DNA of 64,000 nucleotides from Microbacterium sp. 1.5R (lineage in GTDB: Bacteria > Actinomycetota > Actinomycetes > Actinomycetales > Microbacteriaceae): the NCBI RefSeq assembly GCF_001889265.1, contig NZ_CP018151.1:1364001-1428000 (forward strand), given 5' to 3'. The position numbers and the translations under genes were made by a program. The notes under the pieces are model-generated. The model ran no database searches. It saw only the letters and a list, made by a program, of their open reading frames with translations, and was not told where the DNA came from. Shown here piece after piece: positions 40,336 to 60,170 of this stretch (positions are counted from its first letter, which is position 1; every line of letters begins with the position of its first letter).

Positions 40336-40352
40336 CTCTGCCTCCTTCGTCT

Positions 40353-40375: not shown

Positions 40376-40418
40376 CAGTGCAGCCGGCCGACCCGAAGTG
40401 GATCGGGGCGAGTCATGG

Positions 40419-41172: not shown

Positions 41173-41252
41173 CCGTCATCGCGAACCTCCCCGCGCACGG
41201 TCCGGCGCGCTGATCTCAGAGTGCACCGAGGACGGCGCGGATGGTGTGTCTC

Positions 41253-41269
41253 TCACCCCATGCGGGTGA
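41253..41269 (-). promoter_or_regulatory. Regulon palindrome A (GAP-sulfatase)
   Basis: TCACCC-CATGC-GGGTGA. Reading toward the GAP gene, CACTCT follows 29 bases later (41223-41218), then GAGATC, with an inferred start of transcription at 41211. The LuxR gene on the other side has its own promoter (TAGGTT, 41374-41379) and no hexamer at the fixed distance. Confidence 0.75.
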
Positions 41270-41385
41270 GGGCTCGCGGGACGGCGTCGTCGGTGACGTG
41301 GCGACGTGGAATCGCTCCCACCGACTGGTGATCGTCAGGGAGACACGCTCTTGTCCGATATACCGGCCATCGCTAGGTTGAGGGC

Positions 41386-43926
41386 ATGGCCTCCCCCACG
41401 CGCCTGTCTCGTCCTGTACCCGCTGTGCGCTTCCGCCCTCCGGAACGACAACCGGGAGGCGTGCGGCGAGCGCGAGTGAACGATGCGCTGGTCGAGGCGG
41501 CGAGCGGACGGCATCTCAGCGTCGTCAGCGCTCCGAGCGGATACGGCAAGACGACGGCGGTCGCCGAATGGGCATCCGGCGCCGACGAACTCGCCTGGCT
41601 CGCCCTGACCCCATCGGATGCCGAACCCGGCGTACTCGCGCAGGGAGTGGTCGATGCGCTGATCGTCGGCGGAGAGAGAGCGGGACGTTCTCTCGCCCTC
41701 ACACGCGGTCTCGTCGACCCGATGCGTGCCTACGCCGAGATCTGCGAGGGCCTCGACACGGTCGACGACATCGTGCATCTCGTCATCGACGATGCGCAGC
41801 GCGCCGGTGAGCACTGGCGAGACGGACTTCTCGGACTGCTGGCCGAACAGCCGCCGGACAATCTCCACCTCATGCTCGTGGGAACGACCCTTCTGGACAT
41901 CACGCTGTCGCGGGAGCATCTGATGGACCCCGGCGCCTTCGTCGGATCCGACACCCTGCGCTTCACGCGGTCCGAGATCGAGCGGATCGAGGGCGTCGGC
42001 GCTTCCGGACTGGATGCGGAGACGATCCTGCGTGAGACGCACGGATGGCCGATCGCCGTGAAGCTCGTGGCCATCGGCGGGGCGCGCCCCTCATCCGACG
42101 CCGCCACGGCATCCGCGTTCCTCGGAGACTATGTGCGCGACCACGTGCTCAGCGCGCTGCCTGACGAGACCAGAGAGTTCGTGCTCGATGCCGCCATCTG
42201 TCATGAGCTCACGCCAGACCTCGCGAGCGCTGTGACCGGGCGTGCCGATGCGGCGTCGCTGCTCGACGACTGCGTGAGGCTCGGGCTCTTCCTCGACCGG
42301 TTCGAGGCGCCGCACGGTGTCGTCTACCGCTGGCATGGCTCGTTCGCCCGGCAGTGCATCGAGATCGCTCGCAAGGATCCCGAGCGCAGCGCCGAGCGTC
42401 ATAGACGCGTGGCGCAGTTCTGGGAGGCCACCGATCCGCTGATGTCGGTCGCGCACTCGCTGCGGGCGAACGATCCGACGGGGGCCAGAGCCACCTTCAT
42501 GCGCCACTGGATGCGTCTGGTCATGGGAGTGTGCGCGGCCGAGGTCGAGCGCCTCGCCACCGTCCTGCTGGGCTATCACCCGGACGACGCCGAGATCTTC
42601 GCCGTCCGGGCCTGCGCGACGGATGTGCTGGGCGAGCATCATCTCGCCCGCGAGCTGCTGGATCGCGCCGAGGCCGCACACCAGCGCGCCGGGGGAGGAT
42701 GCTCGACGACCCTCGCGATCGCACAGCTGTTCGTCGCCGATGACCGCGAGCACGCGATGTCGGCGGGTTCCACGTTGCGTTCGCTGCTCGCCAGCTCGAA
42801 AGAGCTCATGGTCGACCGCGCCGCCGTCAACTACCTCATCGGATGGTCGGAGATCCGGCATCCCACCAACCCCACGCTTCCGGCCGAGTACTTCGGCGCC
42901 GCAGCCCGAGAGATCGAGGGCTCGGGCGAGGTGGGGCTGTGGAAGCGGGCGCTCGGCCACCTCGCATTCGGCCAGACCTGGGAGGGCCGGTTCACGGATG
43001 CGGAGAGAACCCTCGCCGAGATCCAGGCACCCGGCACCGCGCTGTCGGCCGCGATCGGCTATGCCGGCGGCAGCACCTCAGCAGCAGCCGGTCTGGTCGC
43101 CTACTGGGCGGGTGAGACCGGCGATGCGGTGCGGCACTTCGAGGCGGTGCTTCTGACCAGCGGGCATGACCCGTCATTCACGGCGGTCGCGCGGATGATG
43201 CTGGCGTACGCGGCCGCAGAGGGAGGCGAGGCCGCAGCATGCCGACGGGCTGCGATCGGCGTCCAGGACATCCCCCTCGAACTGCTCCACGGCGTCTCGT
43301 GGCCCGTGTTCCGCGAGTCGGCCATCGCACTCCTGGAGGAGGCCGTCGGAAACGAGGAGCGAGCCCTGCGGATCGCTCGCCGACACCTGGCGATCCCCGA
43401 CCTCCCCCTCATCGGCGTCGCGCTCGCCGGGGTGCTCCGCCGGGGTGGAGACTACGCCGCGGCGTTGGAGATGCTGCGATCCATGCGCATCTTCGCGGAG
43501 GTCTCGTACGTCAAGTCATCGACGCTGATCACGGCCGCGGTCATGCGCCGTCACGTGGGCGATCACGACAAGGCGCACGACCTGTGCGAGGCGGCGATCG
43601 CGGTCGCGTCGGGCGAGAACGTGCGTCTGCCGTTCGGGCGCCGGGAGACGGCTGTCCGGCGACTCCTCAGCGAGCACGTGCACCATGGCTCCGAATTCGA
43701 GGACTTCATCGGCCGATGCCTGGCATCGGATGCAGCGAGTCCCGTGACCGGCTCGTTGTCCGACCGTGAGAGAGACGTCTTCCGGCAGCTGCAGACCTCT
43801 CGCACCCTCCCGGAGATCGCGAGCGAACTGGGCCTGTCCATCAACACCGTGAAGACCCATCAGCGGTCGATCTATCGCAAGCTGGCGGTGTCGTCGCGGC
43901 GGGAGGCCGTGCGGACCACGCTGTGA
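41386..43926 (+). CDS. MalT-like LuxR-family regulator with STAND ATPase
   Basis: An 846-residue regulator. Residues 46-58 hold a Walker A loop (SAPSGYGKTT), 131-138 a Walker B (HLVIDDAQ), followed by a winged-helix segment and helical repeats (about 330-760, TPR-like, e.g. ALEMLRSMR), then a C-terminal LuxR helix-turn-helix (about 780-846, LSDRERDVFRQLQ and SINTVKTHQRSIYRKLAV). This is the MalT/STAND layout: a ligand and ATP trigger multimerisation, then activation. There is no autoinducer-binding domain. TAGGTT 6 bases before the ATG makes it leaderless and outside the palindrome-driven units. It is the only regulator inside the 38-60 kb block and the best candidate to bind the palindromes. 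Confidence 0.9.
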   Translation: MASPTRLSRPVPAVRFRPPERQPGGVRRARVNDALVEAASGRHLSVVSAPSGYGKTTAVAEWASGADELAWLALTPSDAEPGVLAQGVVDALIVGGERAGRSLALTRGLVDPMRAYAEICEGLDTVDDIVHLVIDDAQRAGEHWRDGLLGLLAEQPPDNLHLMLVGTTLLDITLSREHLMDPGAFVGSDTLRFTRSEIERIEGVGASGLDAETILRETHGWPIAVKLVAIGGARPSSDAATASAFLGDYVRDHVLSALPDETREFVLDAAICHELTPDLASAVTGRADAASLLDDCVRLGLFLDRFEAPHGVVYRWHGSFARQCIEIARKDPERSAERHRRVAQFWEATDPLMSVAHSLRANDPTGARATFMRHWMRLVMGVCAAEVERLATVLLGYHPDDAEIFAVRACATDVLGEHHLARELLDRAEAAHQRAGGGCSTTLAIAQLFVADDREHAMSAGSTLRSLLASSKELMVDRAAVNYLIGWSEIRHPTNPTLPAEYFGAAAREIEGSGEVGLWKRALGHLAFGQTWEGRFTDAERTLAEIQAPGTALSAAIGYAGGSTSAAAGLVAYWAGETGDAVRHFEAVLLTSGHDPSFTAVARMMLAYAAAEGGEAAACRRAAIGVQDIPLELLHGVSWPVFRESAIALLEEAVGNEERALRIARRHLAIPDLPLIGVALAGVLRRGGDYAAALEMLRSMRIFAEVSYVKSSTLITAAVMRRHVGDHDKAHDLCEAAIAVASGENVRLPFGRRETAVRRLLSEHVHHGSEFEDFIGRCLASDAASPVTGSLSDRERDVFRQLQTSRTLPEIASELGLSINTVKTHQRSIYRKLAVSSRREAVRTTL

Positions 43927-43957
43927 GGCGCGGGTCCCGCACGCGAGTGATCACACC

Positions 43958-44380
43958 TCAGGTGCGGCGACGGGCGCGCTCCCAGACGGCGTTGGCCGTC
44001 GCCGCGGACACGGAATAGGTTCCGATGAGCGGGTGGCCGAGACGGGCGAGGTCGGAGGAGAGCTGTGCGAACCACATCGGCTCCACGAGAACCACGGCTG
44101 CCCAGGCGCCGACAGGGAGCTCCATCGCGATGCGCCGGGCGTCGTCGCTGCCGACCAGGCCTGCGATCTGCAGTGACAGGCCGGCGAGCGAGAACTCCGC
44201 TTCGTCGATCTCGGTGAGGTCGTAGCCTCCTTCGCTCCGTCGATGCAGGAGGAAGAAGTCGAGCAGCTGCACCGTGCTGCTCTCGACCTGGCGCAGCAGC
44301 GACTCGAGCAGTGCAGGACTGGGACGGTCGGACCCGATCCTCACGACGAGGATCTGCACATCCCCGAGTTCGCGAGGCAT
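43958..44380 (-). CDS. DUF6325-like protein (paralogue 1)
   Basis: A 140-residue protein like the one at 47830: both have an N-terminal strand with ILVVRIGSDRPSPALLESL-type layout, a hydrophobic LLDFFLLHR strand, the acidic DLTEIDEAEF stretch, and a LPVGAWAAVVLVEPMWFA core. It belongs to the actinobacterial DUF6325 family of unknown function. The start ATG has only a weak G-rich ribosome site. It follows the PLDc_N-SHOCT gene by 26 bases and is likely to be cotranscribed from palindrome B. Confidence 0.75.
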   Translation of the reverse strand: MPRELGDVQILVVRIGSDRPSPALLESLLRQVESSTVQLLDFFLLHRRSEGGYDLTEIDEAEFSLAGLSLQIAGLVGSDDARRIAMELPVGAWAAVVLVEPMWFAQLSSDLARLGHPLIGTYSVSAATANAVWERARRRT

Positions 44381-44406
44381 CTGTCCGCCCGCCCCAGTCT
44401 CGGCTG

Positions 44407-44793
44407 TCAGGCCAGGGCCCGAGCCTTGATGGAGGCGAACTCCGCCTCGGTGATGGTTCCGGAGGCCAGGAGCTTGGCCGCCTTGTCGATCTCGTCGCTC
44501 GGGCTGCTGCCGGCGACGCTGCGGATGTAGCTGTCGGCCGCGTGCTGCTGCGCCTGCATGGACGAGACGTTGCGCTCTGCCATGCCGGGGCCGCGGGCGA
44601 TCAGGTACACCAGTGCGGTGAGGAAGGGCACGAAGACCAGGAAGATGATCCACAGCGCTTTGAGCCATCCGTTCAGCGCATGGTCACGGAACAGGTCGGC
44701 GACGATGTTGAAGAGCACCATCAGGTAGGAGATGAATACGAAAGCCCAGAAGAACCACCAGATGATGGCCCAGAAGCTATCCCATATGGACAT
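44407..44793 (-). CDS. PLDc_N-SHOCT membrane protein
   Basis: A 128-residue protein: two membrane segments form a PLDc_N-type module (WAIIWWFFWAFVFISYLMVL; LWIIFLVFVPFLTALVYLIARG), then a short linker and a C-terminal SHOCT motif (DEIDKAAKLLASGTITEAEF). SHOCT domains are short helical hairpins placed at the end of many bacterial membrane proteins; function is unknown. ATG at 44793 has GAGGAG before it. First gene of the two-gene unit behind palindrome B. Confidence 0.83.
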   Translation of the reverse strand: MSIWDSFWAIIWWFFWAFVFISYLMVLFNIVADLFRDHALNGWLKALWIIFLVFVPFLTALVYLIARGPGMAERNVSSMQAQQHAADSYIRSVAGSSPSDEIDKAAKLLASGTITEAEFASIKARALA

Positions 44794-44864
44794 TGCAGAC
44801 TCCTCTCGTTGAGTTTCTGTCTGTGGTGATAGTGGCACCGAGCATCATCGAAATCGCCGCCCCC

Positions 44865-44881
44865 TCACCCGGAGCGGGCGA
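44865..44881 (-). promoter_or_regulatory. Regulon palindrome B, probably bidirectional
   Basis: Plus strand TCACCC-GGAGC-GGGCGA. Toward the PLDc_N-SHOCT gene the near arm is GGGTGA and, after 30 bases, CACTAT (44834-44829), then CACCAC and A at 44822. Toward the AI-2E-type gene, TACAGT (44913-44918) lies 31 bases away and is followed 6 bases later by the GTG. Confidence 0.75.
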
Positions 44882-44924
44882 GCGGCCGCCCGGACCCGTC
44901 CGGACGCCTCGATACAGTCCTCGT

Positions 44925-46055
44925 GTGGATGTGACCGACCCGCAGGATCCTGTGGCCCCGCCGACGACCTTGTCGCGGTGGGGGCGTCTGCAGCGAGTGC
45001 TCCCGGCGCATCCGCTGCGCTCGGGTTTCGCGGTCGCCCTCGGAGTGCTTCTCGCGATGGCGCTCGCCGCCACCATCGCGGGCATCTCCACCGTGCTGAT
45101 GTCGATCTTCCTCGGCGTCTTCCTCGCCCTCGGGCTCGATCCGGCGGTGCGGGCGCTGGAACGCCGTGGCGTGCGCCGCCCCATCGGCGTCGCGATCGTC
45201 GCGGTCGCCTTCCTGCTGCTCGTCGTCGCGATCCTGCTCGTCGTCGTTCCGGCCATCGTGCGTCAGCTCGCCGCGGTGGTCGTCGGCGCGCCCGAGACGA
45301 TCGAGTCGATGCAGCAGAGCCAGTGGTACCTCGATCTCGAACGCAATCTCGGCGTCGACCTCTCGGCGGTGGTCGCGGAAGGGGTACAGTCGCTCACGAC
45401 CCTGTCATCGTTCCTGACGATCTCGGGAGGGGTCCTGAAAGCGGGATTCGGAGTCATCGGGGCGGTGTCGAGCTTCGTGATGGTCTCGGTGCTGACGCTC
45501 TACTTCGTCGCGTCGCTGGAGAGCATCAAGCAGTCAGCCGCTCGGCTCGTCCCCGCCTATCGGCGAGCGAGCTTCTCACGACTGCTCGACGAGGTGACGT
45601 CGTCGGTGGGCGGGGTGGTCGCCGGGGGAGTCACGCTGTCGTCCATCAATGCGGCCGTGGTGCTCGTCCTCCAGCTGCTCGTGGGGTCGCCCGCGCCGGC
45701 GGTGCTGGCGATCGCCGCGTTCTTCGTCACCCTCGTGCCGATGATCGGGTCACTGGTCTTCCTCGTGATCGGCGGCATCGCCACGCTGTTCGTCAGCCCG
45801 ACGGCTGCGCTGATCTTCGTCATCGCGTACTTCGCCTACATCCAGATCGAGGCCTACGTCGTCACGCCGCGGGTGATGGGTCGCGCTGCCGCCGTGCCGA
45901 GCGTGCTCGTGATCATCGGCGCGATGATCGGCGCCACGCTTCTCGGTCTGCTCGGGGCGCTCGTCGCGATCCCGATCACCGCATCGATCCTGATCGTCAT
46001 CCGCCAGGTGTGGATCCCGCGCCAGGACAGCGAGACGACCCCGCCGATCGAGTGA
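44925..46055 (+). CDS. AI-2E-family transporter (paralogue 1)
   Basis: A 376-residue membrane protein of the AI-2E/UPF0118 family, with about eight membrane segments and the core GVLKAGFGVIGAVSSFVMVSVLTLYF, followed by FVTLVPMIGSLVFLVIGG and the YFAYIQIEAYVVTPRVMG segment. Members move ions, small molecules or, in a few species, AI-2; the family name does not establish AI-2 export here. Start taken at GTG 44925, 6 bases after TACAGT, so leaderless; a GTG at 44931 is close. The frame extends upstream, but that region lies in the promoter area. Confidence 0.85.
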   Translation: MDVTDPQDPVAPPTTLSRWGRLQRVLPAHPLRSGFAVALGVLLAMALAATIAGISTVLMSIFLGVFLALGLDPAVRALERRGVRRPIGVAIVAVAFLLLVVAILLVVVPAIVRQLAAVVVGAPETIESMQQSQWYLDLERNLGVDLSAVVAEGVQSLTTLSSFLTISGGVLKAGFGVIGAVSSFVMVSVLTLYFVASLESIKQSAARLVPAYRRASFSRLLDEVTSSVGGVVAGGVTLSSINAAVVLVLQLLVGSPAPAVLAIAAFFVTLVPMIGSLVFLVIGGIATLFVSPTAALIFVIAYFAYIQIEAYVVTPRVMGRAAAVPSVLVIIGAMIGATLLGLLGALVAIPITASILIVIRQVWIPRQDSETTPPIE

Positions 46056-46065
46056 CCGGCGCCCT

Positions 46066-46082
46066 TCACCCGCTTCGGGTGA
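46066..46082 (+). promoter_or_regulatory. Regulon palindrome C (SulP1 operon)
   Basis: TCACCC-GCTTC-GGGTGA. Thirty bases later comes CAGCAT (46113-46118), then GGGCAC and A at 46125. This site drives the five-gene SulP1-DUF6325-SHOCT-GAP-membrane protein operon. Confidence 0.8.
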
Positions 46083-46163
46083 GCGGCGGCGTCTCCGCTG
46101 ACGCACCGATGTCAGCATGGGCACATCGTCCCGCATCGAGGGCGCGAGCGCGGAGGTGACGAG

Positions 46164-47837: not shown

Positions 47838-48261
47838 TTTCCGCTACGGACCCGTGGAGTACTACCTCGTCGGGTTCGAGGGGAGGCATCCGGATCCGAG
47901 CATCTTCGGAGCGCTGGACGACCTCATAGGCGCGGGGACGGTGCGACTGCTCGATGTCGTCGTCCTCGCGAAATCGGACGACGGGGAGATCGAGGTCTTC
48001 GACCTCGAAGCGGGCGAGGTGCCAGGCCTCAGCGAGCTCGACCCGCTGGCCGCAGGCCTCGCCGGCGACGAGGACATCGAGATGCTCGCCGAGCTCGTGC
48101 CCGCCGGCAGCTCGGCCGCGATCGTCGTGCTCGAGCTCGCCTTCGCGAGGGCGCTCGCCGAGAACCTCGCACGTGCCGGGGGAGAGGTGCTGCGGACCGA
48201 CCGCATCCCCGCCCCGGTCGTCAACGCCATGATGGACATCCTCGAGCAGGAAGGAGAGTGA
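47830..48261 (+). CDS. DUF6325 protein (paralogue 2)
   Basis: A 143-residue acidic protein starting MNDFRYGPVEYYLVGFEG, the DUF6325 signature, with hydrophobic strand TVRLLDVVVLAKS, the GDEDIEMLAELVPAGSSAAIVVLE helix-strand and the RIPAPVVNAMMD end. The SulP1 end overlaps it by 8 bases. The function is unknown; the family usually sits beside SHOCT proteins, as here. Confidence 0.88.
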   Translation: MNDFRYGPVEYYLVGFEGRHPDPSIFGALDDLIGAGTVRLLDVVVLAKSDDGEIEVFDLEAGEVPGLSELDPLAAGLAGDEDIEMLAELVPAGSSAAIVVLELAFARALAENLARAGGEVLRTDRIPAPVVNAMMDILEQEGE

Positions 48262-48262
48262 C

Positions 48263-48619: not shown

Positions 48620-48650
48620 GCGGCCGAGCGGGCGAGAAGAGGGAGACGTC

Positions 48651-49325: not shown

Positions 49326-49350
49326 GCGACGCAGAACGGAGGGGACTCGG

Positions 49351-50715: not shown

Positions 50716-50725
50716 CCCGGCCCCG

Positions 50726-50756
50726 GCGGCGCTCACCCTCGACGGGTGAGCGCCGC
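50726..50756 (+). promoter_or_regulatory. Regulon palindrome F inside a longer hairpin
   Basis: Core TCACCC-TCGAC-GGGTGA (50733-50749), with arms extended to 13 perfect bases on each side, so it may also end the upstream transcript. Thirty bases after the core lies GAAGAT (50780-50785), then GGGCGC and the A of the next ATG. Confidence 0.78.
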
Positions 50757-50791
50757 TGCATTCGACACGGATCAACGCAGAAGATGGGCGC

Positions 50792-51421
50792 ATGACGGAC
50801 GACTCGACACCCGAACGCACGAGAGCCACGCGGATCCTCGACATCGTCACGGTCGTCCTGCTCTCGATCACCGCGGTCGTCACGGCATGGTGCGGATTCG
50901 AGGCGTCGAAGTGGGGCGGCGAGATGTCGATCGCCTTCAGCCAGGCATCCAGTGCCCGGGTGCAGGCGGCGTCGGCCCAGTCGACAGCCCAGGCCGCGCG
51001 TCAGTACGACCTCACCATCTACACCGAGTGGGTGCTGGCGGAGGCGGACGGCAGGCAGGAGCTGGTGCAGTTCATCGAGCAGCGGTTCACCCCCGAGTTC
51101 ACGGTCGCGTTCGACGCCTGGATCGCTGAAGACCGCGAATCGCAGGGGCCGTTCGTGATGGAGGAGTACGTGCCCCCGGGCACGAGGGAGGCCGAGGAGC
51201 TCAACGCGAGAGCCGATGCGAAATTCGACGAGGCCCTCGCCAACAACCAGCGCGGCGACGACTATTCGCTGCTGACGGTGCTGTTCGCCCTGGTGCTGTT
51301 CTTCGCCGCACTGTCGCAGCACCAGAGCGCGGTCTGGCGGCGCAGGACATTCCTCGCACTCAGCGGTGTGATCGCCCTCGTGGGGCTCGTGATCCTGCTG
51401 ACGTTCCCGATCAAGATCTGA
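50792..51421 (+). CDS. Small membrane protein, DUF4337-like
   Basis: A 209-residue protein with an N-terminal membrane helix (TVVLLSITAVVTAWCGFEASKW), a long Gln/Ala-rich soluble helix region with acidic stretches (about 45-155), and two C-terminal membrane helices. The layout, and the WCGFEASKW junction, resemble DUF4337-type proteins, but the match is by impression. ATG is the first base of the inferred message (GAAGAT, GGGCGC, ATG). Followed 10 bases later by a SulP gene, so cotranscribed. Confidence 0.7.
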   Translation: MTDDSTPERTRATRILDIVTVVLLSITAVVTAWCGFEASKWGGEMSIAFSQASSARVQAASAQSTAQAARQYDLTIYTEWVLAEADGRQELVQFIEQRFTPEFTVAFDAWIAEDRESQGPFVMEEYVPPGTREAEELNARADAKFDEALANNQRGDDYSLLTVLFALVLFFAALSQHQSAVWRRRTFLALSGVIALVGLVILLTFPIKI

Positions 51422-51431
51422 CTCCGCTCCG

Positions 51432-53129
51432 ATGCAGATGACCGGGGAGGAGCTGCGACAGCGCTGGTTGCGCTATCGGCGTCGGTTCGGCTCGCGCCGC
51501 ACCATCCTCAGCGATCTGAAGGCCGGAATCGTGCTGGGGGTCGAGAGCGTCCCCGACGGGCTCGCGTCGGGTCTGCTCGCCGGGGTGAACCCCGTGATGG
51601 GGTTGAACGCCTACATCGTCGGGACGTTCGCCGGCGCGCTGGCCACCGGATCGGTCTTCATGTCCGTGCAGGCGACAGGCGCGATGGCGGTGATCATCGC
51701 CGATGTGCCCGAGGTCCACGGAGACGACGGCATGGGCGCGATGGCGATGCTGACCGTGATGGCAGGCATCGTGATGCTGGTGCTCGGCGTCGCACGGCTG
51801 GGCAGCCTCGTGCGCTTCATCCCGACGGCGGTGCTGATCGGATTCGTCAACGCCGTCGCCGTCAACATCGTGCTCAGTCAGCTCGAGAACTTCACGGGGT
51901 TCGACAGCGATGCCGACGCTCGTCTGCTGAGGGTCGTCGACATCGCCGCGAACCTGCTGCAGATCAGCTGGTGGTCCGTGATCGTGGGCACCGTCACGAT
52001 CGGACTGATTCTTCTGCTCGAGCGCACCCCGCTCGGCGCGCTCTCGATGGTCGTCGCGATCATCGTCGGATCCGCGCTCGCCGTGGTGCTGCCCGACGGC
52101 GCGGTCGCGACGATCTCCGACGTGGCAGAGGCGGGTCGGAGTCTTCCCTCGGTCTCCCTGCCCGACCTGTCGATGATCTTCGTGCTCATCGTCCCCGCGC
52201 TGTCGCTCGCACTGGTCGGTCTCGTGCAGGGAGCCGCGATCTCCGGGTCCATCCCGAACCCCGACGGTCGCTACCCCGATGCCTCCGCCGACTTCCGCGG
52301 GCAGGGCATCGCCAACATCGCCACCGGGATGCTGCAGGGCATCCCCGTCGGAGGATCCATGTCGGCGACGGCGCTGTCCCGGGCAGCCGGGGCCCGCAGT
52401 GCGGCCGGCAACCTCATCGCCGCCGTCGTGATGGTGCTCAGCGTGCTCGTGTTCGGGCCGCTCATCGGATACATCGCCATGCCCGCGCTCGCCGGCCTCT
52501 TGATCCTGGTCGGCGTCCGCACGGTCAAGCCGCGGCAGATCGTCATGGTGTTCAAGACGGGCGCCGTGCAGATCGCCGTGTTCCTCGTCACCTTCGCGCT
52601 CACGCTCCTCATCCCGCTGCAGTACGCGGTGCTCGCCGGTGTCGGTCTCGCCGTGGTGCTGCAGATCGCACGCCAGTCGAATCGCGTGCGGGTGCGTCGG
52701 TGGGTGTTCGACGAGCCGAACGGGCGTCCGATCGAGCAGGATCCGCCCCCGACCCTCGAACCGGGGGAGACGGTCGTGCTGACCCCCTACGGCAGTCTGT
52801 TCTTCGCCTCCGCGCCCTCGTTCCGTCAGCAGCTGCCCGACGCCGAGCACAGCAGCCCCGGAGCATTCGTGATCATCCGCCTCCGCGGCACGGACGAGCT
52901 GGGAGTGACCTTCCTCACGATGATCCGCACTTACGCCCAAGAGCTTGCGGCGGTGGGGGCCACTCTGATGGTCGCGGGCGTCGGCCCCCGGGTGCAGGCG
53001 CAGCTGGCGTCGACGGGGGTGCGCGCCGTCGTCGGCGAGGAGAACATCTTCGTCGAGCAGCCCCGACTCGGAGACGCGCTGCAGGACGCGCTCGCCGAGG
53101 TGTCGCGTCGCCGACTCGACGCCGGGTGA
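51432..53129 (+). CDS. SulP-family anion permease (SulP2)
   Basis: A 565-residue SulP protein: GIVLGVESVPDGLASGLLAGVNP (partial, the SulP first-segment motif with Pro/Asp changed from the usual), AIIADVPEV, GGSMSATALSRAAGARSAAGN and a C-terminal STAS-like domain (IIRLRGTDELGVTFLTMI). The substrate motif of the first segment differs from SulP1 and SulP3, so transport of a different anion is plausible. ATG at 51432 has only a weak ribosome site, suggesting coupling with the gene upstream. Ends before palindrome G. Confidence 0.87.
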   Translation: MQMTGEELRQRWLRYRRRFGSRRTILSDLKAGIVLGVESVPDGLASGLLAGVNPVMGLNAYIVGTFAGALATGSVFMSVQATGAMAVIIADVPEVHGDDGMGAMAMLTVMAGIVMLVLGVARLGSLVRFIPTAVLIGFVNAVAVNIVLSQLENFTGFDSDADARLLRVVDIAANLLQISWWSVIVGTVTIGLILLLERTPLGALSMVVAIIVGSALAVVLPDGAVATISDVAEAGRSLPSVSLPDLSMIFVLIVPALSLALVGLVQGAAISGSIPNPDGRYPDASADFRGQGIANIATGMLQGIPVGGSMSATALSRAAGARSAAGNLIAAVVMVLSVLVFGPLIGYIAMPALAGLLILVGVRTVKPRQIVMVFKTGAVQIAVFLVTFALTLLIPLQYAVLAGVGLAVVLQIARQSNRVRVRRWVFDEPNGRPIEQDPPPTLEPGETVVLTPYGSLFFASAPSFRQQLPDAEHSSPGAFVIIRLRGTDELGVTFLTMIRTYAQELAAVGATLMVAGVGPRVQAQLASTGVRAVVGEENIFVEQPRLGDALQDALAEVSRRRLDAG

Positions 53130-53139
53130 TCGATGTCCC

Positions 53140-53156
53140 TCACCCTTCACGGGTGA
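53140..53156 (+). promoter_or_regulatory. Regulon palindrome G (sulfatase 2)
   Basis: TCACCC-TTCAC-GGGTGA. Thirty bases later lies TAGCCT (53187-53192), with an inferred start near 53199. It supports the ATG at 53236 as sulfatase start, since the upstream ATG at 53182 would lie before the start of transcription. Confidence 0.75.
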
Positions 53157-53235
53157 CGCGTGAGGGTGGGGGGATTGCGGCATGACTAGCCTCCTCGGGA
53201 CGGACCATTTCTCATACGGCGACGAAGGAGAGACG

Positions 53236-55569
53236 ATGTCGGAATTCAACGCGGACTTCTCGGGCAGGATCGAGCTGGACGTCCGGGACTCGGTGCCCGA
53301 CTGGTCGCCGTACGAGCTGCCGGTGGCACCCGAGGGCGCGCCGAACGTGCTGGTGGTTCTCTACGACGACACCGGCCTCGCCTCCTGGTCCCCGTACGGC
53401 GGACGCATCAACATGCCGACCATGGATCGCCTCGCTCAAGCGGGTCTCACGTACACGCAGTGGCACACCACGTCGCTGTGCTCGCCGACCCGGTCGACCA
53501 TGCTCACCGGCCGCAACCATCACGTCAACCGTGCGGGCGTGATCATGGAGGGTACGAACGGCTTCCCGGGGTTCGCGGGGCGGCTCCCTGCCGAATGCGC
53601 CACGGTCGGTCAGATCCTGCAGCAGAACGGATACTCGACGTTCTGGGTCGGCAAGAACCACAACGTCCCCGAGGAGGACGTCGCCCCGGGCGGCAACCGC
53701 TCGATGTGGCCCCTTCAGCTCGGCTTCGACCGCTTCTACGGCTTCCTCGGCGGCGAGACGAACAACTGGTATCCCGATCTCGTCGAGGACAACCACTTCA
53801 TCGACGCCCCCGCGACGCCGGAGGAGGGATACCACCTCTCGAAGGACCTCGCGGATCAGGCTCTGCGGATGATCCGCAACCAGCAGTCCTCGAACCCGTC
53901 GAAGCCCTGGTACATGTGGTTCTGCCCGGGTGCCAACCACGCGCCCCACCACGCGCCGCAGGAGTACATCGACAAGTACAAGGGCGCGTTCGACGACGGC
54001 TATGACGCGTATCGCGAGTGGGTGCTCGCCCGAATGGTCGAGAAGGGCATCGTCCCGGAGGGGACTGCCCTGACGCCGATCAACCCGCTGCCGGACGACG
54101 TCGCGAACCCCGCCGACGAGGTGCGCCCCTGGGACGAGCTGAACGACGACGAGAAGCGTCTGTTCGCCAGATTCGCGGAGGTGTTCGCCGGGTTCTCCGA
54201 GTACACCGACGCGCAGGTCGGGCGCATCATCGACTATCTCGAGGAGAGCGGCCAGCTGGACAACACGCTGGTCTTCTACTGCGCCGACAACGGTGCGTCG
54301 GGCGAGGGCAGCCCCAACGGCTCCGTCAATGAGAACAAGTTCTTCAACGGATACCCGGACGACCTCGCCGAGAACCTGGCGATGCTCGATCGCCTGGGGT
54401 CTGCTGACACCTACAACCACTATCCGACGGGTTGGGCGGTGGCGTTCTCGACACCGTTCCAGATGTTCAAGCGCTACTCGCAGTTCGCCGGCGGCACGTG
54501 CGACCCGATGGTCATCCACTGGCCGAAGGGCATCCGCGCGCAGGGAGAGCTGCGTCACCAGTACCATCACTCGGTCGACGTGGTCGCCACGGTGCTCGAC
54601 GTGGTCGGCATCGACATGCCTGAGGTCTTCCGTGGCGTGGAGCAGCATCCGCTCGACGGAGTCTCGATGAAGTACAGCTTCGACGCGGCGCCGGATGCGG
54701 CGACAGAGAAGAAGACTCAGTACTACGCGATGCTCGGCACGAGAGGGATCTGGAAAGACGGCTGGAAGGCGGCTGCCGTGCACGCGCCGCTGACCGGCAA
54801 AGGACACTTCGAGGACGACGTGTGGGAGCTCTACAACGTCGAGGTCGACCGTTCGGAGTCGAACGACCTCGCGGCCAGCGAGCCCGAGAAGCTGAAGGAG
54901 CTCATCGCCGCGTGGTTCGAGGAGGCCGATGCCAACTTCGTCCTTCCTCTGGACGACCGCTCCGCGAGAGAGCAGCTCACCATCGATAGGCCCCAGGCCG
55001 AGAAGCCCCGGGAGCGCTACGTCTACTATCCCGACACCGCAGCGGTGCCCGAGAGCGTCGCGGTCAACGTGCGAGGGCGCTCGTACAAGATCATCGCCGA
55101 CGTCGTGCTCGACGAGGGCGCACAGGGGGTGCTGTTCGCCCACGGATCGAGATTCGGCGGGCACTCGCTGTTCATCAAGGACAACCGCCTCACCTACGTG
55201 TACAACTTCCTCGGCATCCCGCCGGAGCAGACCTTCACCTCCGACGAGCTGACTCCCGGTCCGCACACCCTCGGCGTGGAGTTCGTGCGGGAGGGGGCGG
55301 GGGAGCACGGAGAGTCGCTCGGCACCGCCACGCTCTACGTCGACGACCAGGCGGTCGCCTCCGGACCGATGCGTGCCCAGATCGGCAAGTTCACGCTGTG
55401 CGGAGACGGGCTCTGCATCGGATGGGACAGCGCGGATCCGGTGAGCAGCCAGTACGGGGTGCCGTTCCCGTTCACCGGGGGCAAGCTGCTCGGGGTCGGT
55501 GTCGACGTCAGCGGCGAGCAGTACCTCGATCTCGAACTGGAGGCCGCCGCGATGCTCTCCCGGGAGTAG
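53236..55569 (+). CDS. Large type I sulfatase (arylsulfatase, paralogue 2)
   Basis: A 777-residue sulfatase very like that at 37993. The active-site motif LCSPTRSTMLTGR carries Cys82 (formylglycine precursor); VLYDDTG, WVGKNHNVP, GANHAPHHAPQEY and YCADNGASGEGSP supply metal and sulfate ligands; a beta-rich C-terminal domain ends in LCIGWDSADPVSSQYG. It hydrolyses sulfate esters, with an unknown natural substrate. There is no signal peptide. GAAGGAGAG precedes ATG 53236. Single gene driven by palindrome G. The presence of two paralogues at opposite ends of the block suggests related but different substrates. Confidence 0.92.
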   Translation: MSEFNADFSGRIELDVRDSVPDWSPYELPVAPEGAPNVLVVLYDDTGLASWSPYGGRINMPTMDRLAQAGLTYTQWHTTSLCSPTRSTMLTGRNHHVNRAGVIMEGTNGFPGFAGRLPAECATVGQILQQNGYSTFWVGKNHNVPEEDVAPGGNRSMWPLQLGFDRFYGFLGGETNNWYPDLVEDNHFIDAPATPEEGYHLSKDLADQALRMIRNQQSSNPSKPWYMWFCPGANHAPHHAPQEYIDKYKGAFDDGYDAYREWVLARMVEKGIVPEGTALTPINPLPDDVANPADEVRPWDELNDDEKRLFARFAEVFAGFSEYTDAQVGRIIDYLEESGQLDNTLVFYCADNGASGEGSPNGSVNENKFFNGYPDDLAENLAMLDRLGSADTYNHYPTGWAVAFSTPFQMFKRYSQFAGGTCDPMVIHWPKGIRAQGELRHQYHHSVDVVATVLDVVGIDMPEVFRGVEQHPLDGVSMKYSFDAAPDAATEKKTQYYAMLGTRGIWKDGWKAAAVHAPLTGKGHFEDDVWELYNVEVDRSESNDLAASEPEKLKELIAAWFEEADANFVLPLDDRSAREQLTIDRPQAEKPRERYVYYPDTAAVPESVAVNVRGRSYKIIADVVLDEGAQGVLFAHGSRFGGHSLFIKDNRLTYVYNFLGIPPEQTFTSDELTPGPHTLGVEFVREGAGEHGESLGTATLYVDDQAVASGPMRAQIGKFTLCGDGLCIGWDSADPVSSQYGVPFPFTGGKLLGVGVDVSGEQYLDLELEAAAMLSRE

Positions 55570-55585
55570 ACCGCAGGCCCGGCCT

Positions 55586-57214
55586 CTAGCGGGTCGCGGT
55601 GAACGCCTCGTCGACGTTCGCGTGCACCCGGCCCTCGGCGATCATGCGCTGATACCACTCCGTCTTCACCGCGATCGCCGTGGCACGTTCCGGCAGCGCG
55701 GCGATGTGCAGCGTGCTGTCCATCGCGGTCAGCTCACGGTCGAGGTCCTCCAGCATGTCGAGGACCGTGATCGTGACGATGTCGAGCCGCAGGGCGTCGA
55801 GGATCACGATGCGCACAGGTTCGGGCCGTTCGGCGACGATGTCGATGATCGCCCTCTCGCATGCGAGAGCGTTGGCCGTGTAGAGCCCGCGGACAGTGTG
55901 GATCGCGAGGCGTCCGTCGCGCTCTCCGATGATCTCGAGCCGCGGGATGTTGAGCTCTCGCAGTACCAGGATCAGCGTCAACGCCACTCCGGCGGCCACT
56001 GCGGCCAGCAGCCCGACGGTCAGGCCGAGCACGGCGACGATGAGCGCGATCCAGAAGTCCGTCGGACTGATCCGCGCCCACCGGACCAGCAGGGGGATGT
56101 CGATGAGCCCGGCCACGGCGAGGAAGACCATCGCCGCGAGAGTCGCCTGGGGAAGCAGCGAGACCACCGGGCCGAGGAAGACGGCGACCACGATCGCGAG
56201 CGCGACGGTGACGAGCGTCGCGAGCTGGGTCCTGGCACCGGCGTCCCGATTGACCGCGCTCTGCGAGAACCCGCCGGCCGCGGGGAGCACGGTGAAGAAG
56301 GTGCCGGCGAGGTTGGCGGCTCCCACGGCGACGAGCTCCTGGTCGGCGTCGATGGCGGGCTCGGTCATGCGGCGCATGCTGCGCGCGACTGCCGCGGTCT
56401 CGAGGAAGACCATCACCGCGATCGCGAGGGCGCCGGGAAGCAGCGCTCCGATCTGCGTGAGGTCGGGAATGCCGGGGGTCGGGAGTCCCGAGGGCACGGG
56501 ATCGATGAGCGCCACACCTCTCTCGTCGAGGTTCGCGAGTGCGACGAGGACGATTCCGCCGACCACGACGACGAGGGTTCCGGGGATCCGAGGGGCGAAC
56601 CGCTTCAGCACGAGGAGGACGATCAGGCTCCCGACCGAGAGCGCGACCGTGGGCAGGTTGATGCTCGCAGCGGCCGCGATCGCGGCCTCGATGGTTCGGA
56701 AGAACCCCTCTCCCGAGACTTCCGATGTCTCGCCCAGGAGCTTGGGGAGCTGCCCCACGGCGACCGTGCCGCCGACACCGATCTTGACCCCCAGGATCGT
56801 CGCCGCACTGATGTTCTCGACCAGCGATCCCCACCGCAGCAGGCGCGCACCGATGAGCAGCAGACCGACCAGCATCGCCAGGGTCATCAGGCTTCCGGCC
56901 GGGTCCTCGACGCTCGACGCGACGGATGCCGTCACCAGCGTCGTGGCCGTGAGAGTGGCGATGGTCGACGTCGTCGACACGCTCATCGCGCGGGACCCGC
57001 CGAGCAGCGCATACACCAGCATCGGGATGATGCACGTGTAGAGCCCTACCTGCACGGGCAGGTTCGCGATGGTGGCGTATGCCATCGCCTGCGGCACCAC
57101 GACGGCACCGGCTGCGAGGCCGGCGACGACATCGCGCATCAGCCATTCGCGACGGTACCCCGCCATGCTCGGCAGGAGGACTCGCGGGGCGCGTCGCGTG
57201 GCGTGGTCGCTCAT
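55586..57214 (-). CDS. SulP-family anion permease with STAS domain (SulP3)
   Basis: A 542-residue SulP transporter: DVVAGLAAGAVVVPQAMAYATIANLP opens it in the classic VIPQAMAY manner (quoted in part), then SVSTTSTIATLTATTLVTAS, and GFSQSAVNRDAGARTQLATL, the conserved central segment. A C-terminal STAS domain has VRIVILDALRLDIVTITVLDML. Cargo may be sulfate released by the nearby sulfatases. ATG at 57214 is also the first base of the inferred transcript: CAGCAT, GAGCAC, ATG. Convergent with sulfatase 2, 16 bases apart. Confidence 0.9.
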   Translation of the reverse strand: MSDHATRRAPRVLLPSMAGYRREWLMRDVVAGLAAGAVVVPQAMAYATIANLPVQVGLYTCIIPMLVYALLGGSRAMSVSTTSTIATLTATTLVTASVASSVEDPAGSLMTLAMLVGLLLIGARLLRWGSLVENISAATILGVKIGVGGTVAVGQLPKLLGETSEVSGEGFFRTIEAAIAAAASINLPTVALSVGSLIVLLVLKRFAPRIPGTLVVVVGGIVLVALANLDERGVALIDPVPSGLPTPGIPDLTQIGALLPGALAIAVMVFLETAAVARSMRRMTEPAIDADQELVAVGAANLAGTFFTVLPAAGGFSQSAVNRDAGARTQLATLVTVALAIVVAVFLGPVVSLLPQATLAAMVFLAVAGLIDIPLLVRWARISPTDFWIALIVAVLGLTVGLLAAVAAGVALTLILVLRELNIPRLEIIGERDGRLAIHTVRGLYTANALACERAIIDIVAERPEPVRIVILDALRLDIVTITVLDMLEDLDRELTAMDSTLHIAALPERATAIAVKTEWYQRMIAEGRVHANVDEAFTATR

Positions 57215-57256
57215 GTGCTCATGCTGGCATCGAGACGCAGACCGGTCGCCGGCATG

Positions 57257-57273
57257 TCACCCGTCGAGGGCGA
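57257..57273 (-). promoter_or_regulatory. Regulon palindrome H (SulP3)
   Basis: Toward SulP3 the site reads TCGCCC-TCGAC-GGGTGA, then 30 bases, CAGCAT (57226-57221), GAGCAC, and the A of the ATG at 57214. It lies in the gap between the potassium-channel and SulP3 genes. Confidence 0.8.
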
Positions 57274-57288
57274 GGAGCGTCGTGTCGG

Positions 57289-57996
57289 TCACAGCTGCTC
57301 ACGGGTCTCGTCGCGGTGGGTGATCCGTCGCACCCGGTCTCCGATGTACGAGATGACGAGCGCCGAGGTGGTGCCCACGATCGCGATGCCGCCGATCATC
57401 AGACACACCGCGTACACCCGTCCGAGAGTCGTCACCGGGTAGGTGTCGCCGTAGCCGACTGTCGCGATGGTGACGCACGCCCACCAGATCGCCGTGCCGA
57501 AGTCGATGATCGTCGCCTCAGGGGCGCCGCGCTCCACCTGCAGGGTGGCGAGCGAGATGAAGTAGACGAAGAGCACCGTGTACGCGAGGGCGAAGGTGAT
57601 GATCTGCGCCCGGACCGCGTCGCCGGTGCGGCGATGGAAATAGGGGAGGCCGCGTGCGAGCTCGACGACGCGGAACGCTCGGAACAGGGGGACGACAACG
57701 GACAGGACTTCGACGGGATGGTGCACCAGGAATGCGACGCGGCTCCCGGCCGGGGTGAGCGCCACTCGCACGATGAGGTCGATGACCAATGCGAGCCAGG
57801 TGATCGCGATCTCGACCACGAGCACGAGGCGTACCCAGTCTGGAAGGCCAGGCACGAGCACGATCACCGAGTACGCGACGATGAAGCCGAGGCCGAGCAC
57901 CGTGAGGGGAACGGTCGCAGCGGACTCCCAGCGCTGCAGCGTCTCCCGCGCACCCTGCGGCTCGTCTCGGGCGGTGCCGGTCACGTCGTCGGTCAC
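57289..57996 (-). CDS. Voltage-gated-type potassium channel
   Basis: A 235-residue channel subunit with a six-segment layout. A basic S4-like stretch (VVVPLFRAFRVVELARGL) precedes the pore, whose selectivity filter is TVGYGD (179-184), after the pore helix FGTAIWWACVTI. No C-terminal RCK domain, so regulation must be by voltage or partners. GTG at 57996 overlaps the upstream stop (GTGA); a GTG at 58005 is the alternative. It is the third gene of the operon from palindrome J. Confidence 0.88.
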   Translation of the reverse strand: MTDDVTGTARDEPQGARETLQRWESAATVPLTVLGLGFIVAYSVIVLVPGLPDWVRLVLVVEIAITWLALVIDLIVRVALTPAGSRVAFLVHHPVEVLSVVVPLFRAFRVVELARGLPYFHRRTGDAVRAQIITFALAYTVLFVYFISLATLQVERGAPEATIIDFGTAIWWACVTIATVGYGDTYPVTTLGRVYAVCLMIGGIAIVGTTSALVISYIGDRVRRITHRDETREQL

Positions 57997-59111
57997 CGCG
58001 ACCACCGTCGGACGCGGCGTGAATCCCAGGGGATGCGACGAACGACGCGCCCTTCCCTGGTCGCCGGTGACGGGCGAGCGCCGCGGTCTCCCGATACCCA
58101 GCGCAGCCAGAGGGTGTCGTCACTGCCTTCGAGAAGCAGAGTGCGCGCCAGGAGAGTCAGCGGCACAGCCAGCAGAGCACCGACCGGTCCGATGATCACG
58201 GTCCAGAACACGACGGCGAAGAAGCTCAGCGTGACGCTGAGCCCGACGGCATCACTGACGAAAGCCGGCTGAACGAACACCTGCAGAACGACGTTGACGA
58301 CGCAGTACACGATCACCACGCCGAGAAGCAGCGGCCACCCACCCACCGCGAGAGCCAGGATCGCCGGGGGCACGAGTCCGATGACGAATCCGATGTTGGG
58401 GATGAAGTTCGTCACGAAGGCCAGGACGGCCCAGAGGACGGGGGCCGGCACTCCCAGCCACCAGAGCGCGAGGCCGTCCAGCGTCGCGACGATGGCGCCG
58501 AACACGGTGTTCACCACGTAGTAGCGCCGGATGTTCGTGTTCAGCCGCGATATGCGCGCGATCGTCTCGGCCTTGTGAGCGCCGAACACGGTCGACGCAT
58601 GCTGGTAGCGTCCGGCATCCACCGCCATCACGACCACGTAGGCGCAGACCAGGAAGAGAGCGACGGCGATGCCGAGGACGGCGCTGCTCACGCCCTGGGC
58701 GACGGCGACGAGAGCGGGCACGACGATGCGCGCGGCGTCACCGGAGTCCGAGCTCGGGCCTCCGGTGCCCAGAGCGGCCCAACTGTCGAGCTGCGATGCG
58801 ACATGCGTGAGATCGCCGCCGGGGGAGAGGTCGCCGAGGAGATCGATGAACTGCACTCCGGCGATCCACACCAAGGCGCCCATCGCGAGCAGCACAGAGT
58901 AGGCGAGGAGGATGATCGCCGTCACGCCGAGTCCCCGTGGCCACCCGCGCCGGACGAGAGCGCTGCTCGCCGGGCTGCAGATCACGACGACCACCAGAGC
59001 GACCGCGAGCGGCGCGATCACGTCGCGGAGGAGCCATGCTCCCGCCAGTGCGATCGTCGCGCACGCCAGCACCACGAGGACGTGGGTGCCGGCGGCGCGG
59101 GGGGTGCTCAC
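57993..59111 (-). CDS. AI-2E-family transporter (paralogue 2)
   Basis: A 372-residue membrane protein with about eight segments: ATIALAGAWLLRDVIAPLAVALVVVV opening (in part), FLVCAYVVVMAVDAGRY, FVTNFIPNIGFVIGLVPP, and FFAVVFWTVIIGPVGALLAVPLTLL. The family often works in ion or small-molecule efflux, not necessarily AI-2. GTG at 59111 overlaps the HAD stop by four bases, and the channel gene overlaps its end, so the three make one coupled operon. The near-palindrome inside its 3' end (58061-58077) is a poor match. Confidence 0.87.
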   Translation of the reverse strand: MSTPRAAGTHVLVVLACATIALAGAWLLRDVIAPLAVALVVVVICSPASSALVRRGWPRGLGVTAIILLAYSVLLAMGALVWIAGVQFIDLLGDLSPGGDLTHVASQLDSWAALGTGGPSSDSGDAARIVVPALVAVAQGVSSAVLGIAVALFLVCAYVVVMAVDAGRYQHASTVFGAHKAETIARISRLNTNIRRYYVVNTVFGAIVATLDGLALWWLGVPAPVLWAVLAFVTNFIPNIGFVIGLVPPAILALAVGGWPLLLGVVIVYCVVNVVLQVFVQPAFVSDAVGLSVTLSFFAVVFWTVIIGPVGALLAVPLTLLARTLLLEGSDDTLWLRWVSGDRGARPSPATREGRVVRRIPWDSRRVRRWSR

Positions 59112-60064
59112 GGCACGTCTGCGGGTGATCCGGAAACGCCCGGGAACACCGTCTCCCAGTCGTCTCGCACGCTCACGACGATGTAACCGGCGTCGACGGC
59201 GCTCGCGAGAGCCGTCTCGGCACCGGCATCGTACGGAGTGTCCTCGCGGGAGTCGTCGTCATGGTGGATCAGCAGGGCCAGGCCCGGACGGGAGCCACGG
59301 CGAGCGAAATCGAGCATCGGCATGTCGCCGTTGGAGTTCCCGGCTGCGAAGAGCGGTCGGCGTCCGATCCTGCTCCAGATCCGCACGGGCTTCTCCGGCC
59401 CGTCATCGAAGAACGCCAAGGACGGCGCGTAGCGCACCACCGCCTTCTCCGCGTCGTAGCCGAGCCCGAACGCCGAGCCGATGACGCGTTCCGGCGGTAT
59501 GCCGTAGTTGCTCTGCGTCATGGGTCGCATGAAATCGCGCTCGCCGCCTGACACGATGTAGCAGGTGAAGCCGTGCTGCTCGAGATACCGGAGCAGCTCC
59601 ACCATCGGCTGATAGACCGCGTCGGCGTAGCGTCGCTGCAGCACGGGATGTGTCGCGGTCGCGAAGAACTCCGCCACCGACTCGGCGTACTTCTCCACGC
59701 TGACGCCATCGGTGAGCCCGCCGAGGGCTTGGAGGATGACGCCCAGATCCGAGTCATCACCCGAATAGTGCTTGTCGATGGCCGCGCCCAGCCACGCGAG
59801 ATCTCCGCTCACGGCTGCGCGGTACGGCTGCTTCTGCGCGAGCTCCGGGTCGAGCTCGGCGGCCACACGCCACTGCTCGACGACATAGTGGAGCTGTGTC
59901 GGCATGGGCTTCTCCGACCAGAGGGTGCCGTCGTTGTCGAACACGGCGATGCGCTCTTCGACGGGAACCGCGTCCGCACCTTCCGTGACCGACAGGACGA
60001 AGCGCTCGATCGCGTCGCGCGTCGCACCCTGGTTCCAGGATCGCAGCTGTGCCGGGTCGTCCAT
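59108..60064 (-). CDS. HAD-superfamily hydrolase
   Basis: A 318-residue phosphatase-like protein. Motif I is AVFDNDGTLWS (nucleophile Asp43, Asp45), motif II the YIVSGGERDFM segment, motif III/IV AAGNSNGDMPML, with an Asp-rich HHDDDSRED insert. Proteins with this arrangement often neighbour sulfatases in actinobacteria and are secreted or cytoplasmic phosphatases of unknown substrate. ATG at 60064 gives a 5' leader of 47 bases from the inferred transcript start at 60111. First gene of the three-gene unit. Confidence 0.8.
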   Translation of the reverse strand: MDDPAQLRSWNQGATRDAIERFVLSVTEGADAVPVEERIAVFDNDGTLWSEKPMPTQLHYVVEQWRVAAELDPELAQKQPYRAAVSGDLAWLGAAIDKHYSGDDSDLGVILQALGGLTDGVSVEKYAESVAEFFATATHPVLQRRYADAVYQPMVELLRYLEQHGFTCYIVSGGERDFMRPMTQSNYGIPPERVIGSAFGLGYDAEKAVVRYAPSLAFFDDGPEKPVRIWSRIGRRPLFAAGNSNGDMPMLDFARRGSRPGLALLIHHDDDSREDTPYDAGAETALASAVDAGYIVVSVRDDWETVFPGVSGSPADVP

Positions 60065-60153
60065 CGCGCTCTCGATTCTCTCGATACTGGTGCGTCGTGC
60101 GGGCCGTTCGTCGGCCCATCCTGACACCGGCCGAGCGCGCGGTGGAGACCCCG

Positions 60154-60170
60154 TCACCCGCTTCGGGCGA
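60154..60170 (-). promoter_or_regulatory. Regulon palindrome J (HAD-AI-2E-channel operon)
   Basis: Toward the HAD gene it reads TCGCCC-GAAGC-GGGTGA, then 30 bases, CAGGAT (60123-60118), GGGCCG and A at 60111. Confidence 0.78.

Follow-up and report, generated by a model that had tools for sequence, protein, structure and literature searches.

Actinobacteria commonly encode large ATP-binding LuxR regulators, few of which, to our knowledge, have a defined operator. The closest described case is MalT (ACSP50_3915) of Actinoplanes sp. SE50/110, which exerts an activating effect on 40 of the 51 genes of a large maltose-regulated genomic region through the operator TCATCC-N5-GGATGA, on evidence that includes overexpression and deletion of malT; the motif ends 34.4±1.0 nt before the transcription start (PMC7567727). 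The same article quotes the Escherichia coli MalT box as GGGGA(T/G)GAGG, and MalT multimerises on inducer and ATP, according to the section of PMC4381067 drawn on here. In Streptomyces, the Group I sites of BldM, TCACcCgnncGgGTGA, are described as TCACcC-N4-GgGTGA, and BldM is proposed to act as a homodimer (PMC4125116, in the part used here). In the present work we analyzed a stretch of 64,000 nucleotides of Microbacterium sp. 1.5R (contig NZ_CP018151.1, positions 1,364,001 to 1,428,000), referred to as the window, where an inverted repeat, or dyad, is found seven times in a block of sulfatase, transporter, channel and other genes. Judging from the sequence, this dyad is most likely the operator of the STAND/MalT-type LuxR protein encoded at 41386-43926, which would activate the units of the block together.

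A sequence-only reading of the window had proposed an undescribed regulon with seven intergenic sites of the form TC(A/G)CCC-N5-GGGTGA. They lie at the following positions, given without strand:

41253 to 41269, dyad A, TCACCCCATGCGGGTGA, between the SfLAP gene and the LuxR gene
44865 to 44881, dyad B, between the SHOCT gene (minus strand) and the AI-2E gene (plus strand)
46066 to 46082, dyad C, upstream of SulP1
50733 to 50749, dyad F, upstream of the gene of a 209-aa protein
53140 to 53156, dyad G, upstream of sulfatase 2
57257 to 57273, dyad H, upstream of SulP3
60154 to 60170, dyad J, upstream of the HAD, AI-2E and channel genes

All seven match TCACCC-N5-GGG(T/C)GA exactly and none is intragenic against the gene list of the window; the A/G variation of the earlier description arises when the right arm is read on the opposite strand. 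When two mismatches to TCRCCC-N5-GGGYGA are allowed, the window contains 34 matches, against 31.4 expected by chance, and the remaining 27 all carry 1 or 2 mismatches. A scan of the whole genome (3,620,317 bases, one contig), which had been suggested, yields nine TCACCC-N5-GGGYGA sites, seven of them in the block and only two extra copies, at 151562 and 2966017. From the density outside the window 0.036 exact copies would be expected in 64 kb, as compared with the 7 observed (P ~1.5e-14), which agrees with the earlier view of chance as a poor explanation.

Read toward a gene, every dyad is followed at a nearly fixed distance by a -10-like hexamer. The distances in the window were counted by eye on the flanks, and the recount reproduced the reported hexamers and spacings of 29, 30 or 31 nt for A, B in both directions, C, F, G, H and J:

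41218 to 41223, minus strand, -10-like CACTCT, 29 nt from dyad A, toward SfLAP and sulfatase 1
44829 to 44834, minus strand, extended -10 TGC-CACTAT, 30 nt from dyad B, toward the SHOCT gene, with a similar element before SHOCT orthologs
44913 to 44918, plus strand, -10-like TACAGT, 31 nt from dyad B, toward the AI-2E gene
46113 to 46118, plus strand, extended -10 TGT-CAGCAT, 30 nt from dyad C
50780 to 50785, plus strand, -10-like GAAGAT, 30 nt from dyad F, with transcription predicted to begin on the ATG at 50792
53187 to 53192, plus strand, -10-like TAGCCT, 30 nt from dyad G
57221 to 57226, minus strand, extended -10 TGC-CAGCAT, 30 nt from dyad H, with transcription predicted to begin on the ATG at 57214
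60118 to 60123, minus strand, extended -10 TGT-CAGGAT, 30 nt from dyad J

The TG of an extended -10 is present at B (minus strand), C, H and J, a feature overlooked by the sequence-only reading. Across the genome, [CT]ANNNT is found 29-31 nt from the dyad on the gene-facing strand at eight of the nine sites, the exception being GAAGAT at F. A larger set was obtained by pooling the window with 138 loci (L067-L106 and L109-L206), removing near-identical sites at 80% identity and counting every dyad in both directions, which left 268 oriented dyads. With the first base of the hexamer limited to C or T, the extended pattern TG-N-YANN(A/C)T occurs at 29-31 nt in 35 of these 268 non-redundant oriented dyads (2, 25 and 8 at 29, 30 and 31 nt, respectively) and only twice in total at all other positions from 3 to 63, while the shuffle control gives a mean of 0.23 and a maximum of 3 at 29-31.

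No clear -35 emerges from the dyads aligned on the -10, the highest information between -42 and -18 being 0.39 bit. Concerning the first base of the hexamer, when it is left unrestricted the clade of the window LuxR (the window clade, see below) shows C 34, G 16, A 1 and T 0 times in TG-N-?A...T at 29-31 nt (n = 51), and C 54, G 25, T 3 and A 3 times when TG is not required and the pattern is ?A..(A/C)T (n = 85). This rule is not strict, as the window hexamers of G and of B in the plus direction start with T. The weak -10, together with the missing -35, suggests activator dependence. Transcription starts can be inferred from the same elements: the start codon of the 209-aa gene lies 42, 42, 42, 42, 43, 43 and 35 nt past the dyad in seven genomes including the window (the 35-nt value is a tblastn extrapolation, in a flank with an ATG at 41), and that of SulP3 in the window likewise lies 42 nt from the dyad. 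Since the start codon coincides with the predicted transcription start, leaderless transcripts are likely for both genes, and the start-codon position supports the -10 assignment independently of the hexamer sequence.

The two outlying dyads of the genome have TACGCT on the gene-facing strand. One (151562-151578; L108:9063-9079), with the hexamer at 30 nt, stands before a family S51 peptidase gene, whose ortholog in L246 (88%) has an upstream dyad with two mismatches, i.e. the site is weakly kept in one other genome; this peptidase gene is a possible eighth unit of the regulon. The other (2966017-2966033; L107:9518-9534), with the hexamer at 31 nt, precedes the gene of a repeat protein of ~2990 aa with nine DUF5979 stretches, and identical dyad letters occur upstream of a 28%-identical relative of this protein in L020, with no -10 at 30 nt there.

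When one mismatch is allowed, the 639 kb of clusters L067-L103 contain 73 N5 sites, 25 of them exact, and 2 N6 sites; N4 is absent from these clusters and from the window, and appears in one site, with one mismatch, in 116 kb of loci from the sister clade described below. Direct and everted arrangements of the half-site show no spacing on a par with N5, which is favoured while the loop sequence varies. The dyad with its fixed N5 is most likely the operator of a MalT-type regulon with half-site GGGTGA. A side observation is that TCACCC directly abutting GGGTGA (N0) is the commonest arrangement after N5 among spacers 0 to 12 in the same clusters, with 17 sites at up to one mismatch, 1 of them exact.

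The candidate regulator combines an N-terminal NOD, a C-terminal GerE domain and large size, as is characteristic of STAND/MalT-type LuxR (LAL) proteins. Residues 23-376 match the MalT-like NOD ATPase of MalT chain 8bob_C (E 1.8e-26), residues 15-374 match PRK04841 (E 4.3e-47), Pfam AAA_22 is just under cut-off, and a GerE helix-turn-helix (PF00196, 51.3 bits) occupies residues 790-843 of 846. The protein is below the MalT equivalog NF003420, with 160.7 bits against a cut-off of 537. Its orthologs were sought in 198 Microbacterium genomes including its own, up to four candidates being scored per genome, and were found in 15 of the 197 others at 56-63% identity, with 7 more genomes having a homolog at 40-45%. 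The number of TCRCCC-N5-GGGTGA matches on both strands follows this distribution, with medians of 8 in the 16 ortholog genomes (own included), 6 in the 7 with a 40-45% homolog and 2 in the 175 others.

The dyad is also linked to LuxR genes at the level of individual loci. SHOCT loci were collected via the SHOCT protein alone from a many-taxa collection, keeping the best 80 of 482 relatives; a locus comprised 6 kb per side, less at contig ends, a dyad was accepted with up to one mismatch and up to 260 nt upstream, and GerE genes were detected with a small profile built from LuxR loci. In this set a dyad lies upstream of the SHOCT gene in 23 of 28 loci with a GerE gene and in 6 of 52 without one (Fisher 4e-10, close relatives included; kinship among loci makes all such P-values overstated). 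Among 18 loci around exact dyads, five from genomes without an ortholog (L109-L113) have the dyad between the SHOCT gene and a different MalT-type LuxR gene, with 25-29% identity over the aligned N-terminal part, and a further one (L114) has a different MalT-type LuxR gene and dyads, with no SHOCT gene in the stretch. The other 12 (L115-L126) contain no such LuxR in the stretch: 3 have SHOCT beside the dyad, 3 have other GerE genes and 6 neither. This linkage to MalT-type LuxR genes across loci supports the LuxR as the candidate regulator, as the sequence-only reading had suggested. It should be noted that six loci (L115, L118, L119, L122, L124 and L125) have exact dyads in stretches that contain no MalT-type LuxR gene and no SHOCT gene, as unexplained copies in the genus.

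Loci of LuxR homologs at 32-34% (L104-L106) contain no dyad within one mismatch of TCACCC-N5-GGGTGA. An additional MalT-type LuxR clade lies beside several clusters (L070, L074, L086, L174 and L199 on the tree, plus fragments), and in the stretches covered no dyad is found closer to it than about 7 kb. In L106, the Actinoplanes motif TCATCC-N5-GGATGA is found at 5614 and 9475, by a LuxR homolog of ~32%, with no clear -10, and is absent from L104 and L105. The half-site may differ by LuxR clade.

The other MalT-type LuxR genes found beside dyads form, in the tree, a separate clade of 20 members with support 1.0 (L109-L114, L197, L231-L236, L238-L241, L245, L247 and L248). A further 18 LuxR loci, L231-L248, were chosen from the LuxR search matches, three of them previously known to have nearby dyads. 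Dyads occur in 13 of the 18; their neighbours are homologs of the SHOCT, channel, AI-2E or sulfatase genes, joined by SulP3 and HAD in one locus. The five loci where no dyads were found are L237, L244 and L246, which fall outside the sister clade, and L242 and L243, which are its outer branches. The sister clade is similar to the window clade in its identical dyad and in overlapping neighbours (SHOCT, channel, AI-2E and sulfatase, with SulP and HAD in some), but differs in the position of the -10, mostly at 22-23 nt and often TANNNT, as compared with 29-31 nt. With [CT]A...T, the window clade (n = 177 oriented dyads) has 64 with the hexamer at 29-31 nt and 5 with it at 22-23, whereas the first sister loci (n = 43) have 4 and 16, respectively, and the new ones (n = 80) 3 and 36. 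The pooled table, with the sister sets de-duplicated together, is 64 and 5 against 6 and 48 (Fisher P ~1e-21, overstated by kinship of the loci). A sample of 299 genomes of the family contained two other-genus LuxR homologs of 36-37% (E <=1e-60), one of which (L229) has one dyad with hexamers at 29 and 30 nt, and the other (L230) no dyad. As read from these sequences, the operator and some targets are common to both clades, and promoter geometry tracks the regulator clade.

Conservation of individual targets was followed in 40 stretches from 24 genomes (15 close, 6 of the 7 intermediate and 3 weaker). The counts refer to the 15 close genomes and to dyads with up to one mismatch, up to 250 nt upstream; the loci are phylogenetically related, genes in other genomes were detected by tblastn or blastp only, and AI-2E matches rest on the second AI-2E protein as query. 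Dyads stand before orthologs despite diverged flanks: they are found before the SHOCT gene in 13 of the 13 genomes where it was detected, before the 209-aa gene in all 6 testable cases (a seventh is at a contig end), before the HAD gene in 9 of 11, and before SulP3 in the 2 with the start inside the stretch. Fixed spacing, genome specificity and dyads kept before several orthologs uphold the core of the sequence-only reading, that is, a regulon in which a single operator stands at a single distance from the promoter. Most of the checks that this reading had named as refuting come out in its favour, with two copies elsewhere in the genome and none of the seven inside a gene.

The genes of the block are as follows:

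37993 to 40416, minus strand, sulfatase 1 (PF00884), behind dyad A after the SfLAP gene
40447 to 41172, minus strand, SfLAP/Sap family membrane protein (PF11139), behind dyad A
41386 to 43926, plus strand, 846-aa STAND/MalT-type LuxR, proposed regulator, with the NOD match to MalT and C-terminal GerE helix-turn-helix
44407 to 44793, minus strand, 128-aa protein with C-terminal SHOCT domain, behind dyad B
44925 to 46055, plus strand, AI-2E family transporter (PF01594), other side of dyad B, putative start codon
46164 to 47837, plus strand, SulP1 anion transporter with STAS domain, behind dyad C
50792 to 51421, plus strand, 209-aa protein, DUF4337 match below cut-off only, behind dyad F
51432 to 53129, plus strand, SulP2 with STAS domain, probably in one operon with the 209-aa gene
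53239 to 55569, plus strand, sulfatase 2 (PF00884), behind dyad G, putative start codon
55586 to 57214, minus strand, SulP3, behind dyad H
57289 to 58005, minus strand, ion channel (PF07885), last of the HAD, AI-2E and channel run behind dyad J, putative operon
57993 to 59111, minus strand, second AI-2E family transporter, behind dyad J, putative operon
59108 to 60067, minus strand, HAD-family hydrolase, first gene behind dyad J, putative start codon

The role of the block is perhaps anion or sulfate-ester handling at the envelope, which is plausible given the three SulP transporters, the two sulfatases, both with a CxPxR motif in their translations, and two FGE-sulfatase family matches elsewhere in the genome; the SHOCT, AI-2E, SfLAP, HAD and channel genes point to a broader envelope or ion response. 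A DUF6325 family gene at 43958-44422, with a putative start, adjoins the end of the SHOCT gene, perhaps in a common transcript.

We infer the following mode of action, in which LuxR binding and activation, rather than repression, are the predicted steps. By analogy with MalT, the window LuxR would multimerise on inducer and ATP, its helix-turn-helix domains would bind both GGGTGA half-sites, and it would recruit RNA polymerase to promoters that lack a clear -35 and whose -10 is weak and often extended, resulting in a joint switch-on of the SHOCT, SulP, sulfatase, AI-2E, SfLAP, HAD and channel units. In the usual -10 numbering the operator would occupy roughly -59 to -43. Its upstream displacement relative to the sister clade, and presumably to Actinoplanes, would be some 7-8 bp.

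Several observations weigh against this interpretation. In the close genomes the dyad is kept before few copies of SulP1 (4 of 13), of sulfatase 2 (2 of 5, a contig end cutting one of the five) and of the second AI-2E gene (2 of 12); for SfLAP, the target of site A, the figure is 1 of 11. Retention before orthologs is thereby complete for the SHOCT and 209-aa genes, incomplete for HAD and low for these four. Gene order is altered in the close genomes where retention is low, and given this difference the low figures may reflect operons, with the poorly kept targets inside them; they bear more on how far the regulon extends than on whether it exists. Toward the LuxR gene, no -10 is seen 30 nt from site A, and autoregulation is not evident. 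Of the 175 genomes that lack a 40% homolog, ten have at least 8 pattern matches, and several of these ten carry sister-clade LuxR genes. Finally, six of the 52 GerE-less loci among the best 80 SHOCT relatives nevertheless have the dyad, and the genome itself has 18 GerE-domain matches, i.e. another helix-turn-helix protein could bind. One of the six loci, L144, may belong to G091:C1, where a LuxR homolog sits elsewhere. These last two points would fit a real operator recognised by a different protein with a GerE domain, for instance a NarL/BldM-like response regulator, with the LuxR gene as a mere neighbour, a proposal also favoured by the identical half-sites of BldM Group I in the portion of PMC4125116 used here. 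We consider it unlikely, since the spacer is N5, with N4 practically restricted to the single mismatched site of the sister loci, the dyads follow MalT-type LuxR genes across loci, and a promoter spacing that tracks the MalT-type clade is unexplained by an unlinked regulator.

A repressor acting on the same operator is less probable still: a palindrome near a promoter is compatible with repression, but these dyads lie upstream of weak -10 elements, with no clear -35 and mostly C or G as first base, that would need help, and the Actinoplanes relative activates (PMC7567727, in the part used here). Hairpins at the 3' ends of the preceding genes, either terminators or mRNA-end structures, could be imagined for C, F, G and H (4 of the 7), which are 10-17 nt from a neighbour gene's stop codon. 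Nevertheless, the genes flanking A and B both start from the dyad side and run apart, 740 nt separate J from its other neighbour, no T-run is visible beside the dyads, and neither the fixed -10 spacing nor the preference for N5 with a varying loop sequence fits such hairpins; they were rejected on flanks and gene positions and retain a negligible probability. The same low value applies to chance or a dispersed repeat in GC-rich DNA, with which the near-random frequency of matches at up to two mismatches would agree, but not the 7 exact copies nor the dyads before orthologs with diverged flanks; this explanation was rejected on genome specificity, the shuffled promoter pattern and the excess of exact copies.

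If the LuxR indeed acts through the dyad, one large LuxR regulator gains a candidate operator, a promoter rule and a target list open to a gel-shift test. The paired clades, with one operator at two promoter distances, constitute a natural experiment on how a STAND activator engages RNA polymerase and on a regulon's change of regulator, and the extended -10 with no clear -35 and a first base that is mostly not T poses a specific question on activator-dependent promoters in high-GC bacteria. A stronger proposal, to which we give slightly less than an even chance, is that two MalT-type activator clades in one genus have a common operator and part of their targets, with operator positions that differ by 7-8 bp along the helix (centre near -43 versus -51) and the longer form associated with a distinct extended -10 that rarely starts with T. 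Regulator replacement would then have been accompanied by a coordinated shift in promoter geometry, and the window clade would either make a contact with RNA polymerase that has not been described among MalT-type activators or use another sigma factor.

Compared with known systems, and within the parts of the cited articles used here, the window is most similar to Actinoplanes, with a MalT-type LuxR inside a large co-regulated block, an N5 inverted repeat before many units and no single pathway. Its dyads conform to the form TCAYCC-N5-GGRTGA, but the exact Actinoplanes half-site GGATGA is replaced by GGGTGA, and the 34.4±1.0 nt to the start contrast with about 42 predicted for the window clade; the 22-23 nt of the sister clade would give about 35 nt, that is, the Actinoplanes arrangement. 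The Actinoplanes genes (arginine deiminase, permeases, peptidases and glutamine amidotransferase) are unlike those of the window, and 'sulfatase' and 'SHOCT' are absent from the main text of PMC7567727. E. coli MalT is comparable in the NOD match, in the core GGA(T/G)GA, which resembles the window half-site, and as an activator acting beside the -35 region; differences are the equivalog score of the window LuxR, the strict inverted repeat and the block itself, where no maltose genes are seen among the Pfam-annotated genes, whereas MalT proper controls maltose genes with maltotriose as its inducer. BldM has half-sites equal to those of the window dyad, but it is an atypical response regulator, not a STAND ATPase, and BldM Group I membership was rejected on the N4 spacer of its 16-bp palindrome. 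Full-text literature searches by half-site and gene content gave, among the matches listed, only Actinoplanes MalT and BldM as relevant and no description of this regulon, so that 'undescribed' applies only in part, to the regulon itself and not to its kind: the MalT-type regulon of a large region is already known from Actinoplanes, and what is new is the half-site and the promoter distance.

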